A stretch of 35,752 bases of DNA from Gammaproteobacteria bacterium. Lineage in GTDB: Bacteria; Pseudomonadota; Gammaproteobacteria; SZUA-152. The notes under the pieces were generated by a model that ran no database searches, was not told the DNA's origin, and saw only the letters and a list, made by a program, of their open reading frames with translations. Below, in pieces: positions 4,035 through 32,764 of this stretch; positions within the stretch are counted from its first letter, which is position 1; each line of letters opens with the position of its first letter. The stretch spans positions 1 to 35,752 of the forward strand of contig JAVVEP010000022.1 in assembly GCA_032250735.1 (NCBI GenBank), read 5' to 3'. The translations under genes and the position numbers were made by a program.

Positions 4035-4146
4035 GGCGACCCGTGCGGGTCCCCTTGCAACGAGAAACTGTGAACCCCGTCAGGCCCGGAAGGGAGCAGC
4101 GGCAGCAGTGGATTCGTGTGCGGGTGTGGCTGGTGCGGGTTGCCAC
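4035..4146 (+). ncRNA. ffs: Small signal recognition particle RNA (4.5S RNA)
   Basis: This is the RNA core of the bacterial signal recognition particle, which binds Ffh and targets membrane proteins to FtsY and the translocon. The diagnostic domain IV core is present at 4079-4100: GTCAGGCCCGGAAGGGAGCA, with the GGAA tetraloop and the asymmetric and symmetric loop bases. The ends close the helix: GGCGACCCG (4035-4043) pairs with CGGGTTGCC (4136-4144). The length of about 110 nt matches 4.5S RNA. Position upstream of dnaX-ybaB-recR matches Pseudomonas-type genomes, although here a kinase gene and a repeat patch intervene. Exact ends are estimated from pairing. Confidence 0.93.
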
Positions 4147-10991: not shown

Positions 10992-11588
10992 ATGGAATTT
11001 AGCCCGCTCATCAATCGCCTGATTGAGGACCTGCGCTGCCTGCCCGGCGTGGGCCCCAAGTCGGCGCAGCGCATGGCCTTTCATCTGCTGGAACGCGATC
11101 GCGAAGGGGCGCAGCGTCTGGCGCGGTCCCTGGCCGAGGCGGCGGAGCAGGTCGGCCATTGCAGCCAGTGCCGCACCCTCAGCGAAACCGAGCTCTGCCC
11201 GCTGTGCGCCAACCGCAGCCGTGAACAGCACCTGCTGTGCGTGGTGGAGTCACCGGCCGACGTGCGCGCCATCGAGCAGGCCACCCCCTATCGCGGCCGC
11301 TATTTTGTATTGATGGGCCATCTCTCGCCGCTGGATGGCATCGGACCCGACGACATTGGCCTGGACCTGCTGGATGCCCGACTGGCGGAGGGGGTGATCA
11401 GCGAAATCATCCTCGCCACCAATCCCACCGTCGAGGGCGAGGCTACCGCCCACTACATCAGCGAGATGGCCCGGCTGTATGGGATCAGCAGCAGCCGCAT
11501 CGCCCACGGCGTGCCGCTGGGCGGCGAACTGGAATATGTGGACGGCGGCACGCTCGCCCACGCCTTCTCGGGCCGTCGCCAGCTGTAG
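10992..11588 (+). CDS. recR: Recombination mediator protein RecR
   Basis: It acts with RecF and RecO to load RecA on gapped DNA. The 198-residue length is standard. A helix-hairpin-helix near the N-terminus ([20 protein letters not shown]) is followed by the four-cysteine zinc finger C-x2-C ... C-x2-C ([16 protein letters not shown], about residues 57-72). The Toprim domain carries [12 protein letters not shown] and [10 protein letters not shown], and the C-terminus has [16 protein letters not shown]. It begins 45 bp after ybaB and ends before a probable terminator. Confidence 0.96.
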
Positions 11589-11674: not shown

Positions 11675-11701
11675 TAAAGATTCAACCGACTCTGCCGCAA
11701 T
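11675..11701 (+). promoter_or_regulatory. Sigma-28-type promoter upstream of fliA
   Basis: TAAAGATT (11675-11682), an 11-base spacer, then GCCGCAAT (11694-11701). The sigma-28 consensus is TAAAGTTT-N11-GCCGATAA, so 12 of 16 positions match with exact spacing. It lies 85 bp before the fliA start, and would make fliA self-activating. Confidence 0.55.
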
Positions 11702-11786
11702 TCTACAAAACAATCTCTGGCCAACGTTGCACCCGCCCACGCGGGGACAACGCCCGGACCACCCTCGTTTGATTGCTGAGGCAAGC

Positions 11787-12503
11787 ATGTACGACAACCT
11801 TGAGAACGCCGGTCACGATGAGCTGGTCACCAAATACGCGCCGCTGGTGAAACGTATTGCGTACCATTTAAAGGCGCGTCTGCCATCTTCGGTGGTTGTC
11901 GATGATCTGCTGCAGGCCGGCATGATCGGCCTGCTCGAGGCCTCCCGGAAATATGATGCCAACCAGGGCGCCAGTTTTGAGACCTATGCCGGCATCCGGA
12001 TTCGCGGCGCCATGCTCGATGAATTACGCCGCAACGACTGGGCGCCGAAATCCGTGCACCGCAAGATTCGCGACATCACCGAGGCGATTCGCAACATCGA
12101 GCATCGCGAGGGCCGCGACGCCCGCGACGAAGAGGTGATCGACGCCCTCGGCATCTCCCGCGAGGACTATTTCAAGACCCTGAATGACATCTCCAGCCAT
12201 CGCGTACTGAGCTGGGATGAACTCGGCATTGACGAGGACGCCTTTGGCCACAGCCTCAATGACAACAAGCCCGGCGTGCATGACGAACTGGAAAACCAGC
12301 ACTTCCGGGAAAAACTTTCGGAGGCGATCGGCTCGCTGCCGGAACGCGAAAAGATGATTGTCTCCCTGTATTACGAATCCGAACTGAACCTGCGCGAGAT
12401 CGGTTCCGTGCTCAACGTCAGCGAATCCCGCATCAGTCAGTTACTGAGCCAGGCACATATTCGCTTGCGGGCTCGCATGCGCGACTGGATTACGCAACAA
12501 TAG
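11787..12503 (+). CDS. fliA: RNA polymerase sigma factor FliA (sigma-28)
   Basis: The alternative sigma factor for late flagellar, motility and chemotaxis genes, 238 residues as usual. Region 2 includes LVKRIAYHLKARLPSSVVVD, then DLLQAGMIGLLEA and the -10-binding part FETYAGIRIRGAMLDELR. Region 3 is RDARDEEVIDALGISREDY, and region 4 carries LPEREKMIVSLYYESELNLR followed by the helix-turn-helix ending in SESRISQLLSQAH. The frame is open from 11727, but ATG 11787 has TGAGG upstream and gives the family N-terminus. No other flagellar gene is nearby, whereas fliA usually lies by fleN/flhG and cheY. A sigma-28-like promoter stands in front. The 258-residue upstream extension is not supported. Confidence 0.94.
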   Translation: MYDNLENAGHDELVTKYAPLVKRIAYHLKARLPSSVVVDDLLQAGMIGLLEASRKYDANQGASFETYAGIRIRGAMLDELRRNDWAPKSVHRKIRDITEAIRNIEHREGRDARDEEVIDALGISREDYFKTLNDISSHRVLSWDELGIDEDAFGHSLNDNKPGVHDELENQHFREKLSEAIGSLPEREKMIVSLYYESELNLREIGSVLNVSESRISQLLSQAHIRLRARMRDWITQQ

Positions 12504-12531
12504 GGCCCGGTTCCACAACAAGCCCTTTATT

Positions 12532-12996
12532 ATGTCCCAACACATCCTCATCCCCCGGCGCACGCTCAAAAACGCCACCCGCCTGCACGAGGCGAATTTC
12601 AAAAAGCTGTCGCACGTGGTGCCCGGCCTGCGCGACCTGGGTAAGTCCATTCGCGTGCGCGCTGACGATGGCACCCGACTGAATTTGGACATTCTGGAAA
12701 GCAGCAAATACACCAAAACCTTTTGCCTGCAGCTGATACACAACACGGAGCAGCCATGGTTGCTCAGCCTGAACATGAAAATCCGTAATTATTATGACGC
12801 CAATGTGACCGAGGCCCTGGCCTTTCAGCACCGGCACCGCATCAATGCCCGTTACCCCTATCCCAATCCCCACATGTTTCAGCCCGACGAAAAGTGGCAA
12901 ACCAACCATTTTCTGAGCGAATGGCTGGATTACTGCCTGCGCACCCGCTGCATCTTTCGTGACGAAAACCAATACTTGAGCGATGAAACGCAGTAG
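12532..12996 (+). CDS. DUF1249 family protein (YqiB-like)
   Basis: A 154-residue cytoplasmic protein of the DUF1249 family, known in E. coli as YqiB; its function is undefined. Family marks are the N-terminal NFKKLSHVVPGL, the LNLDILESSKYT strand, and the later NMKIRNYYDANVTEALAF followed by RYPYPNPHM. In E. coli its relative lies beside cpdA and nudF; here it follows fliA by 28 bp and may share its transcript. The ribosome site before ATG is weak. The family is largely gammaproteobacterial, which helps place the organism. Confidence 0.85.
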   Translation: MSQHILIPRRTLKNATRLHEANFKKLSHVVPGLRDLGKSIRVRADDGTRLNLDILESSKYTKTFCLQLIHNTEQPWLLSLNMKIRNYYDANVTEALAFQHRHRINARYPYPNPHMFQPDEKWQTNHFLSEWLDYCLRTRCIFRDENQYLSDETQ

Positions 12997-13068
12997 CTCG
13001 CAAACGCCGTAGCCCGTATTGCTCAGGCGGTTAATGAGTGGTAAAACAAAACGTTAAATGCGGCCAGT

Positions 13069-13096
13069 TAAAGTTTTTTCGCACCGCTACCGATAT
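13069..13096 (+). promoter_or_regulatory. Sigma-28-like promoter upstream of the Sel1 gene
   Basis: TAAAGTTT (13069-13076) is an exact sigma-28 -35 element. After 12 bases comes ACCGATAT (13089-13096), six of eight matches to GCCGATAA. The spacer is one base longer than the consensus. The start codon at 13164 is 67 bp downstream. Confidence 0.55.
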
Positions 13097-13163: not shown

Positions 13164-14180
13164 ATGAAAAATCTGAACCCGCACCTTCTCCGACTCATTG
13201 CCGCTGGCTGTATTGCCGGCTGCATCGCAGTCTTCAGCTCCGCGGCCTTTGCCGCTGGCGACTATGTATGGGAAGAAAAATTCAAAGACGCACTGGCCGC
13301 TGCCGAAAAGGGCGATGCACAATCCCAATATGCCGTTGGCGAAATGTACGAAAAGGGTAAAGGCGCGGTAAGAGACAGCGAAAAGGCCTTTGAGTGGTAT
13401 GCCAAGGCCGCAGAACAGGATGATGAAAAGGCCGCCTTCAAACTGGGTTATGCCTACCTGGAAGGCGACGGCATCAAGAAAAATTACGAGCTGGCGCGCA
13501 AATGGTTACAAAAATCCGCCAATAAAAAGTATGTACGCGCCGAATACTATCTGGGTGTGCTGTATGAGAAAGGCCGCGGTGTCGAACAGGATTACGACGA
13601 GGCCATAAAATGGTACAAACAGGCGCTGGCCGGCGGCTACGGCATCGCCTCCGAAGGCCTGCAACGCGCCTCCAGCGCACAGCAGGCCGCCGATCGTGAG
13701 GCCGCGAGTCGGACTGCGGCGCCGCCTCCCGCCCCTCGGCCAAAACCCGTGGAGAGACCAAAGCCCCAGGCCGCGCCAAAACCGCTATCCACCAAGGACA
13801 AGATCCTGGCCGGCGGCTGGAAAAAACGCAATACACCGGTTGAGTATCTGCCGTCATCCGACACCCAATGTGCGGATGAAGATAGCCGCATCGCATGTAT
13901 TTCGACCGAGCTCACGCGCAATATCGGCATGGCCGACATCACCTACACCACAAAGGCCATTCTGTTCGGCTTTAAACCCAACGGTGAATTCAAGGTGTCT
14001 TATCGCAATAACGTCAGCAAGATCACCGTCACCGATGAGGCGTTTGCCGAGTCCGGCGGCAAGGTTCCCGTCACCCTCGGCTGGCAGGATGCGGATCATC
14101 AACTGACCTGCGAGTTCGAGACTGACCGCTCGCTGGCCTGTACCAAAAACAAGGTGCGCAACATCATGCTCACACGCTAG
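13164..14180 (+). CDS. Secreted Sel1-repeat protein
   Basis: A 338-residue exported protein. A signal peptide spans residues 1-30 (cleavage near AFA-AG). Three Sel1-like helical repeats occupy about 42-165, with the typical AxYxLGxxYxxGxG pattern (AVGEMYEKGKGAVRD, KLGYAYLEGDGIKKN, YLGVLYEKGRGVEQD). A Pro/Ala/Lys linker (about 180-210) leads to a C-terminal domain of about 125 residues with four cysteines, for which I know no name. Sel1 repeats mediate protein contacts; the T-ring flagellar motor protein MotX is one periplasmic example. AGGGA precedes ATG 13164; the TTG at 13161 is a worse start. A sigma-28-like promoter lies upstream and a terminator downstream. A motor or motility role is inference. 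Confidence 0.85.
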   Translation: MKNLNPHLLRLIAAGCIAGCIAVFSSAAFAAGDYVWEEKFKDALAAAEKGDAQSQYAVGEMYEKGKGAVRDSEKAFEWYAKAAEQDDEKAAFKLGYAYLEGDGIKKNYELARKWLQKSANKKYVRAEYYLGVLYEKGRGVEQDYDEAIKWYKQALAGGYGIASEGLQRASSAQQAADREAASRTAAPPPAPRPKPVERPKPQAAPKPLSTKDKILAGGWKKRNTPVEYLPSSDTQCADEDSRIACISTELTRNIGMADITYTTKAILFGFKPNGEFKVSYRNNVSKITVTDEAFAESGGKVPVTLGWQDADHQLTCEFETDRSLACTKNKVRNIMLTR

Positions 14181-32273: not shown

Positions 32274-32302
32274 TTGACAGACCCTGCGAATACCCCTAAA
32301 GT
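32274..32302 (+). promoter_or_regulatory. Sigma-70 promoter of the cold-shock gene
   Basis: TTGACA (32274-32279), a 17-base spacer, then TAAAGT (32297-32302). Transcription should begin near 32309, giving a 5' leader of about 115 bases, typical of cspA-type genes in which the leader senses temperature. Confidence 0.75.
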
Positions 32303-32424
32303 CCGCGCAGCTACAGATTTTGGTATAGGCAGTTCTGGTTGTTCCCTTCAAGTTACCCCCTGATTCCTCTTTTCATCTCCTGTACGCAACACTCTAATTT
32401 TAATTTTTCAAAGGTAAATGTCAC

Positions 32425-32625
32425 ATGACTACAGGTACTGTAAAGTGGTTCAACGAAGCCAAAGGTTTCGGTTTTATTTCTCAGGATAATGGCGGCGATG
32501 ACGTATTCGTGCATTTCAATGCCATCCAGGGTTCGGGCTTCAAAACCCTGGCTGAAGGTCAGCCGGTCACGTTTGACGTAGAGAACGGCCCCAAAGGCCT
32601 TCAGGCGTCTAACGTTACTGCCTAA
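32425..32625 (+). CDS. Cold-shock domain protein (CspA family)
   Basis: A 66-residue single-stranded RNA/DNA chaperone. RNP1 (KGFGFISQ) and RNP2 (VFVHFNAI) are intact, and the start [11 protein letters not shown] is canonical. AAGG stands before the ATG. A long leader, strong promoter and sharp terminator make it a stand-alone gene. Family members act in cold adaptation or general RNA handling; which one this is cannot be told. Confidence 0.95.
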
Positions 32626-32653
32626 TCACCACCCCATCGGATAACACCGATAC

Positions 32654-32683
32654 AAAAAACCCCGCTCCGGCGGGGTTTTTTTT
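32654..32683. terminator. Bidirectional intrinsic terminator
   Basis: AAAACCCCGC-TCCG-GCGGGGTTTT followed by more T, with an A-run on the left side. It ends the csp transcript and, read on the other strand, can end the cbiX/photolyase transcript. Confidence 0.93.
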
Positions 32684-32764
32684 CGTCCTCTATTTTGTCG
32701 AATGCTTTATCTAATAATTTGTCTAATACTATTGTTAACATCTAACGGAAATTAGTCGCTACTA

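Follow-up and report, generated by a model that had tools for sequence, protein, structure and literature searches.

Sigma-28 is the textbook sigma factor of late flagellar genes. In a window of 35,752 nucleotides (the whole stretch of DNA analysed here) from a 3.43 Mb gammaproteobacterial genome in 61 contigs, a gene of the FliA family is found between recR and a DUF1249 gene, and no flagellar gene is recognised in the window by inspection. The locus raises two questions: what would such a sigma factor serve, and is it this protein or the flagellar FliA of the same genome that reads the sigma-28-type sites found nearby?

The locus

A first-pass annotation had placed one sigma-28-type site in front of fliA and another in front of a Sel1-repeat gene, 85 and 67 bp before the respective ATGs. 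Both the positions and the distances are exact. The features, with the FliA-family gene named fliA2, are the following.

10992-11588, + strand: recR, with RecR Pfam domains; upstream neighbour of fliA2 in the bacterial family; negative control below
11675-11701, + strand: putative sigma-28-type promoter of fliA2, TAAAGATT (11675-11682), 11 nt, GCCGCAAT (11694-11701), then 85 nt to the ATG at 11787
11787-12503, + strand: fliA2, sigma-28 paralogue of 238 aa; FliA family, outside the flagellar FliA clade
12532-12996, + strand: DUF1249 gene (PF06853, 112 bits against a cut-off of 25)
13069-13096, + strand: putative sigma-28-type promoter of sel1, TAAAGTTT (13069-13076), 12 nt, ACCGATAT (13089-13096), then 67 nt to the ATG at 13164
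13164-14180, + strand: sel1, predicted exported protein of 338 aa; PF08238 in three stretches

Cytochrome oxidase genes, identified by inspection, follow sel1. The DUF1249 gene starts 28 nt past the fliA2 stop codon and is probably co-transcribed with fliA2. Two structured RNAs are also found in the window, a bacterial small SRP RNA (4044-4138, + strand, 66.1 bits against a gathering threshold of 40) and a cspA thermoregulator (32297-32684, + strand, 110 bits against 78).

Orthologous loci were collected by whole-genome searches of 40 genomes, including the source genome. Within the family, fliA2 is present in 21 of 24 genomes, the source genome being counted; it was not found in G003 and G006, which are 73% and 81% complete, or in G020, which is split into 1,070 contigs. 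There are 22 family sel1 loci, and fliA2 and sel1 lie on a single contig in 20 of the 21 genomes having fliA2.

FliA2 and the flagellar FliA

The profile scores of FliA2 are those of a full-length member of the FliA family (NF005413, 305.9 bits against a cut-off of 201; TIGR02479, 265.8 against 189.6). The name fliA given at first pass is thus right for the family, but it does not designate the flagellar gene. The latter is carried by contig C19, in a flhF-fleN-fliA-cheY-cheZ cluster, and its product (FliA1) is 58% identical to FliA2. Likewise, the initial remark that no flagellar gene is in view holds for the window, but flagellar genes are present elsewhere in the source genome.

In a quick tree of 122 FliA sequences, the 38 with FlhF, FleN, CheY or CheZ neighbours fall on one side and the other 84, including FliA2, on the opposite side (SH-aLRT 97). 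In a more careful tree of 92 sequences, the same split (30 and 62 rows) is a single branch with 100/99 support. Left out of this second tree were 30 of the 122 rows, among them near copies and the long-branch flagellar FliA L030, L033, L034, L144 and L289; L065-L082 and L098, copies of MAGs among the G genomes, were excluded from both trees. The loci were found through FliA2 peptides, as the best 80 of 103, so that flagellar FliA is under-sampled. After re-rooting, the FliA2 node read 94/80; the value quoted is that of the table of splits, since labels may shift on re-rooting. Orthology of FliA2 with the flagellar FliA was rejected on account of its position across the 100/99 branch and of its neighbours recR, DUF1249 and sel1. 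FliA2 most likely arose when the flagellar sigma factor was duplicated long ago. In the open-licence literature, no description of the FliA2 clade, or of a FliA associated with DUF1249, was found.

It was considered to label the FliA2 clade non-flagellar, and this label was dropped because fliHIJK and che genes adjoin some members of its subclade B. In G016, genes recognised by inspection as motB and motA precede fliA2 at a distance of 3.6 to 5.6 kb (L220:4231-6216).

Two FliA above the family cut-off are present in 24 of 27 FliA2-related genomes; G068 and G082 have one, and G020 none. From this coexistence of the two factors arises the main rival to a role of FliA2 at its own locus. Following this rival, which we hold to be unlikely, FliA1 would read all the sites, fliA2 and sel1 would be late flagellar genes, and the pilus genes described below would have joined the flagellar regulon, FliA2 being then either redundant or a relay acting downstream. 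The presence of flagellar FliA in the source genome and the location of some subclade-B fliA2 genes beside fliHIJK or che genes speak for it. The proteins themselves bear on the matter in two ways. Region 2 appears almost identical by eye in FliA1 and FliA2, and the sigma regions are so alike that cross-recognition of sites is to be expected; both factors may therefore read the same sites. In the helix of region 4.2, residues 217, 219 and 220 are S, L and L in the FliA2 of the family and mostly C, I and H in flagellar FliA, a hint, not a proof, of an altered contact with the -35 element. Genomes having FliA2 and no flagella were also sought; among 37 genomes no clean case was met. Flagellin was not found in five of them (G012, G067, G069, G072 and G084), but each of these encodes a FliA beside flagellar genes (CheY/CheZ only in G067, FleN only in G072).

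The sites upstream of fliA2 and sel1

In all 21 family fliA2 loci, the pattern TAAAG-N14/15-[GA]CCG occurs at most 220 nt upstream of the gene, for 0.06 expected; with a broader pattern the count is again 21 of 21, for 0.12 expected after dinucleotide shuffling. The strict pattern is absent upstream of the fliA of flagellar clusters (0 of 16 loci), and the sigma-28 pattern is absent from the negative control, the upstream regions of recR (0 of 20 loci), as well as from those of the family DUF1249 genes (0 of 21). The sel1 site is found in 15 of 22 orthologous loci, for 0.24 expected after dinucleotide shuffling, three of the 15 matches (L047, L048 and L051) being less convincing TTAAG...TCCGAT variants about 200 nt upstream. 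The loci without it are L043, L044, L045, L049, L050, L053 and L055; four of these seven belong to genus g3, the fliA2 loci of which retain their own site. The proposal that the two sites are of the sigma-28 type is therefore borne out by a conservation far above chance.

Outside the family, 14 of 55 FliA2-clade genes are preceded by the strict pattern (0.12 expected) and 27 by its [GA][CT]CG form (0.34 expected), which leaves 28 of 55 without even a loose motif. The relaxed patterns (T[AT]AAG, T[ATC]AAG, [GA][CT]CG) and those of the conservation counts were set after part of the data had been seen.

Both sites combine a TAAAG -35, a spacer of 11 or 12 and a -10 of the CCGA type. The optimum spacer of sigma-28 promoters is 11 bases; that of the sel1 site, 12, is one base above, and a 12-base spacer is also found at pilU and at several sel1 orthologues. 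The textbook -10 element is GCCGATAA, from which the GCCGCAAT of fliA2 departs at three of eight positions, making it a variant -10. It resembles GCCGTAAT, the -10 of flagellin, and this likeness is a point for FliA1 as the reader.

Could the sites be fortuitous, or conserved for another reason, for instance as binding sites of another regulator? Part of the conservation within one genus is explained by short divergence, and, summed over the 12 genus genomes, the relaxed fliA-type pattern is little more frequent than its reversed controls (33 matches against 25). Within the window, the sel1 site is the one exact match to TAAAGNTT-N13-CCGATA, and it alone stands out, since with up to three mismatches there are 4 matches for 2.8 expected. 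Similarly, TAAAGNTT-N11-GCCGNAAT, a pattern written so as to fit the fliA2 site, is matched exactly once, and three times for 1.4 expected with up to three mismatches. Nevertheless, the two boxes, 11 or 12 bases apart, persist across genera when the sequence of the spacer and the flanks diverge, and 15 to 21 sites are found where 0.06 to 0.24 are expected. An origin of the sites in chance or in another regulator appears very improbable, and we infer that they act as promoters in vivo. With a sigma-28-type promoter in front of its gene, FliA2 would most likely activate its own transcription.

Genome-wide distribution of sigma-28-type sites

The pattern TAAAGNTT-N12-NCCGATA has two exact matches in the 3.43 Mb genome, before sel1 and before pilU, and five with one mismatch allowed, for none with reversed-pattern controls. 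With the spacing TAAAGNTT-N11-NCCGATA, the two exact matches precede pilM and a rhodanese-like gene, and 12 matches are obtained with one mismatch for two in the reversed controls. The exact match on contig C30 falls within a long reading frame if the first start is used. Among the one-mismatch matches are sites before flgM, a cheY-like/cheC operon and flgK (the last overlapping the end of the preceding gene), and others before a HAMP/PAS sensor gene adjoining parE, sucA and an MCP-like sensor gene, names being given partly by inspection. In this genome only, another is found some 350-430 nt upstream of pilG, from which a small ORF separates it, at the head of a pilG-pilH-pilI-pilJ-cheR-chpA cluster of which PilJ and CheR have Pfam matches. 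The remaining matches fall within coding sequences or have no clear gene behind them. Finally, a fliA2-like site, TAAAGCTT-N11-GCCGTAAT, stands about 130 nt before a flagellin domain match. On the question put at first pass, the two sites of the locus do rank with those of late flagellar genes.

Summed over the 12 genus genomes, TAAAG-N15/16-CCGATA yields at least 162 matches against at least 43 for reversed controls, among the matches listed. By eye, no consistent difference in -10 or -35 distinguishes flagellar from pilus sites.

Three further genes recur behind such sites. That before sucA (2-oxoglutarate dehydrogenase E1, by inspection) is unexpected for a gene of the TCA cycle and is seen in five genomes (G000:C41:3103-3128; G010:C56:30979; G002:C77:23999; G005:C115:20548; G011:C209:61846). 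The gene of an EAL-HDOD protein, the Pfam assignment being that of the G010 copy, is preceded by a sigma-28-type site in two (G010:C82:72977-73002; G002:C69:47568). A possible heme protein, with a CxxCH motif seen by eye, has a recurring sigma-28-like site upstream (G010:C8:18259; G002:C91:20900; G005:C209:13615).

Type IV pilus genes

The products of the two pilus genes behind exact matches score above their family cut-offs, with 431 bits against a cut-off of 133 for PilM, and 430 against 319 for the pilU product, in the PilT/PilU family. At pilU, the site is seen in G000, G009, G010 and G011, and near-identical or similar sequences lie about 4 kb from the pilM site in G002, G003, G004, G006, G007 and G008; this brings the genus genomes having the site to ten or more out of twelve. 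In G002, G005 and G010, a pilin gene following a mshG-like gene also carries a site. Its MSHA type rests on the mshG-like neighbour, by inspection; with NCBIfam models, only the prepilin motif of the G010 protein is above cut-off.

The distribution of the pilM site, which precedes the pilM operon, bears on which factor reads it. The site is present in all 24 genomes of the family, the one with the FliA2 of the recR/DUF1249 type. It is found in 3 of 12 other subclade-A genomes, the nine without it all having FliA2, and in none of 13 subclade-B genomes, which likewise all have FliA2. A weak one is seen in one of six class outgroups; among the four of the latter that were searched, flagellar FliA is present in G024 and G037, and none was detected at the threshold used in G034 and G038. 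Of the 13 subclade-B genomes lacking the site, 10 have a FliA seen in flagellar context, so that the site tracks the recR/DUF1249-type FliA2 better than the flagellar FliA. This distribution argues against FliA1 as the common reader and leans to FliA2. Several points weaken the case for FliA2: the 13 subclade-B and nine subclade-A genomes that lack the site, the sel1 loci and the other FliA2-clade genes devoid of their motif, the likeness of the two factors, and the appearance of flgM, flgK and cheY/cheC in the same scan.

A second pilM copy of G085 (L221; G085:C125:2903-3499) was excluded from these counts as likely contamination of this MAG. It is 86% identical to the pilM of the source genome, the other copy 73%.

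DUF1249 and neighbourhoods in distant genomes

DUF1249 is found in 56 of 84 loci on the FliA2 side of the tree against 0 of 38 on the flagellar side, many loci being short and near copies being included in these counts. Its product is a candidate partner or regulator of FliA2. In distant genomes too, fliA, DUF1249 and a gene for a Sel1 or Sel1-like protein co-occur, and to speak of a small FliA regulon, as was done initially, is fair. Five subclade-B loci were read by eye (L113, L128 and L142, and partly L101 and L119). Where in view, che/fliHIJK genes precede fliA2, which is followed by genes for a long protein, a VWA lipoprotein and DUF1249, then by one for a small exported protein that combines a SPOR domain with Sel1-like repeats. 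The Sel1 scores of this last protein (30.3, 22.1 and 27.9 bits in L142, L128 and L101) are under the Pfam cut-off of 30.7; its SPOR scores are over theirs. The vicinity of fliA2 therefore repeatedly encodes an exported protein of the Sel1 or Sel1-like kind, with differing C-terminal domains and at times behind a sigma-28-type site. The conserved protein of about 480 aa adjoining subclade-B fliA2 (L142:6991-8439; L128:7110-8579; L101:6969-8414) has no Pfam match up to an E-value of 0.01, as judged from the L142 copy.

Immediately upstream of DUF1249, a TAAAG/TTAAG site is present in six distant loci (L103, L113, L131, L134, L135 and L142). These come from an ORF-based look at 18 hand-chosen loci, in which sites elsewhere precede fliA2 or other genes. 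Counted from partial tblastn starts, sites upstream of DUF1249 outside the family amount to 3 of 15 in subclade B and 1 of 17 in the rest of subclade A.

The Sel1 protein

Sel1 consists of a signal peptide, recognised by eye, three Sel1 repeats (PF08238, 108.3 bits against 30.7), a linker rich in proline and lysine, and a beta domain of about 125 residues. In the alignment of 12 orthologues, four cysteines of this domain (C236, C245, C316 and C326) are invariant. The AlphaFold2 model has a mean pLDDT of 88 and a pTM of 0.48, with the repeats at about residues 28-180, followed by the linker and the beta domain. Predicted from a single sequence, the C-terminal domain reaches a pLDDT of 38, and profile searches of PDB and Pfam gave nothing credible for it; no new fold is claimed on this account.

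The presence of Sel1 repeats in MotX had suggested a motor or motility accessory. The model does match MotX (8z5n; Z 13.9, rank 17, rmsd 3.1 over 143 aligned residues), though over residues 32-177, the part past about 180 being barely tested; the match covers the Sel1-repeat fold that the two proteins have in common. Other Sel1 proteins match the repeat part better (8sxq, Z 17.8, rmsd 3.5, 150 aligned; 6orc, Z 17.4, rmsd 1.9, 134 aligned). With 20.7 bits against a cut-off of 330 for the MotX family (NF047621) and an additional C-terminal beta domain, Sel1 was rejected as a member of it. The modelled fold suggests a scaffold for protein binding, and the signal peptide a periplasmic or exported location. 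Judged by the genes that share its type of promoter, pilM and pilU, a link with type IV pili is no less indicated than one with the flagellar motor, and a role at the pilus or the cell surface may be envisaged.

These observations bear on another alternative, in which FliA2 would be a second flagellar sigma factor of the usual sort, serving late motor or chemotaxis genes, Sel1 a motor accessory, and the pilus sites secondary. It can invoke fliHIJK, cheD and cheB as neighbours in some of subclade B, the motA and motB genes of G016 and the Sel1 repeats of MotX. It fits poorly with a window devoid of recognised flagellar genes, with the failure of the MotX model and the lower rank of the MotX structure, and with pilU and pilM as the company of sel1 under the exact patterns. 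We regard it as improbable, less so than fortuitous sites.

A model for the locus

These data are most economically explained by an autoregulated FliA2 that has DUF1249 as partner and acts on sel1 and on pilus genes. The locus would be a self-contained sigma-28 unit. FliA2 would sustain its own synthesis in a positive loop, the same transcript probably carrying DUF1249, and would drive the exported Sel1 protein through the second sigma-28-type promoter. Because the same type of promoter is found before pilM, pilU, the pilin gene and the pilG-chpA genes, FliA2 would most likely couple pilus production, together with Sel1, to its own activity. On balance, and on the strength of sequence comparisons, we consider it somewhat probable that FliA2, not FliA1, drives itself, sel1 and pilus genes, alongside the flagellar FliA regulon or overlapping it. 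A wider reading is put forward tentatively, and we would doubt it sooner than hold it: the FliA2 clade, widespread in Gammaproteobacteria and mostly accompanied by the flagellar FliA, would be a self-activating switch, rewired to type IV pili in the present family, with DUF1249 as a candidate FlgM-like partner and Sel1 as an exported pilus or surface factor.

If the model is true, it provides an example of the way in which sister sigma factors can take charge of swimming and of attachment to surfaces, and it gives DUF1249 a testable role. It would also be a warning to annotators, since an isolated fliA is not always a sign of flagellar genes.

Comparison with known systems

In family scores and promoter architecture, FliA2 is like the flagellar sigma-28 FliA (NF005413/TIGR02479) with its TAAAG/CCGATA promoters. 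It differs by its location outside the flhF-fleN cluster, by its separate clade and by the sigma-28-type promoter of its own gene. Two sigma-28 factors in one genome are also described in a report on the dual flagella of Plesiomonas, where FliA coexists with FliAL (PMC11242183). FliA2 differs from FliAL in standing beside recR, DUF1249 and sel1, outside a lateral flagellar cluster.

A link between sigma-28 and pili is not universal. According to an excerpt on Acidithiobacillus caldus, genes named type IV pili are up in an rpoF knockout (PMC6543871); these genes thus rise without sigma-28, in the direction opposite to the one proposed for FliA2. The closest parallel is found in Bdellovibrio bacteriovorus. 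Passages of two reports (PMC5430801, PMC3627812) describe that FliA drives a Tad (type IVb) pilus operon, with a sigma-28 consensus TTAAG-N16-CCGATA before pilus genes and a supportive heterologous assay in E. coli; this example of a flagellar FliA commanding pili can also be put to the credit of FliA1 (PMC5430801). A sigma-28 factor driving a pilus operon is therefore of an already known kind. The likeness lies in sigma-28-type sites before pilus genes, known here from sequence. In the Bdellovibrio case, as far as those passages tell, the factor is the flagellar one and the pili are of the type IVb/Tad kind, whereas here two FliA are present and the genes, pilM and pilU, are of type IVa. The sites shared with type IV pilus genes suggest a swimming switch that was copied and turned to surface appendages.
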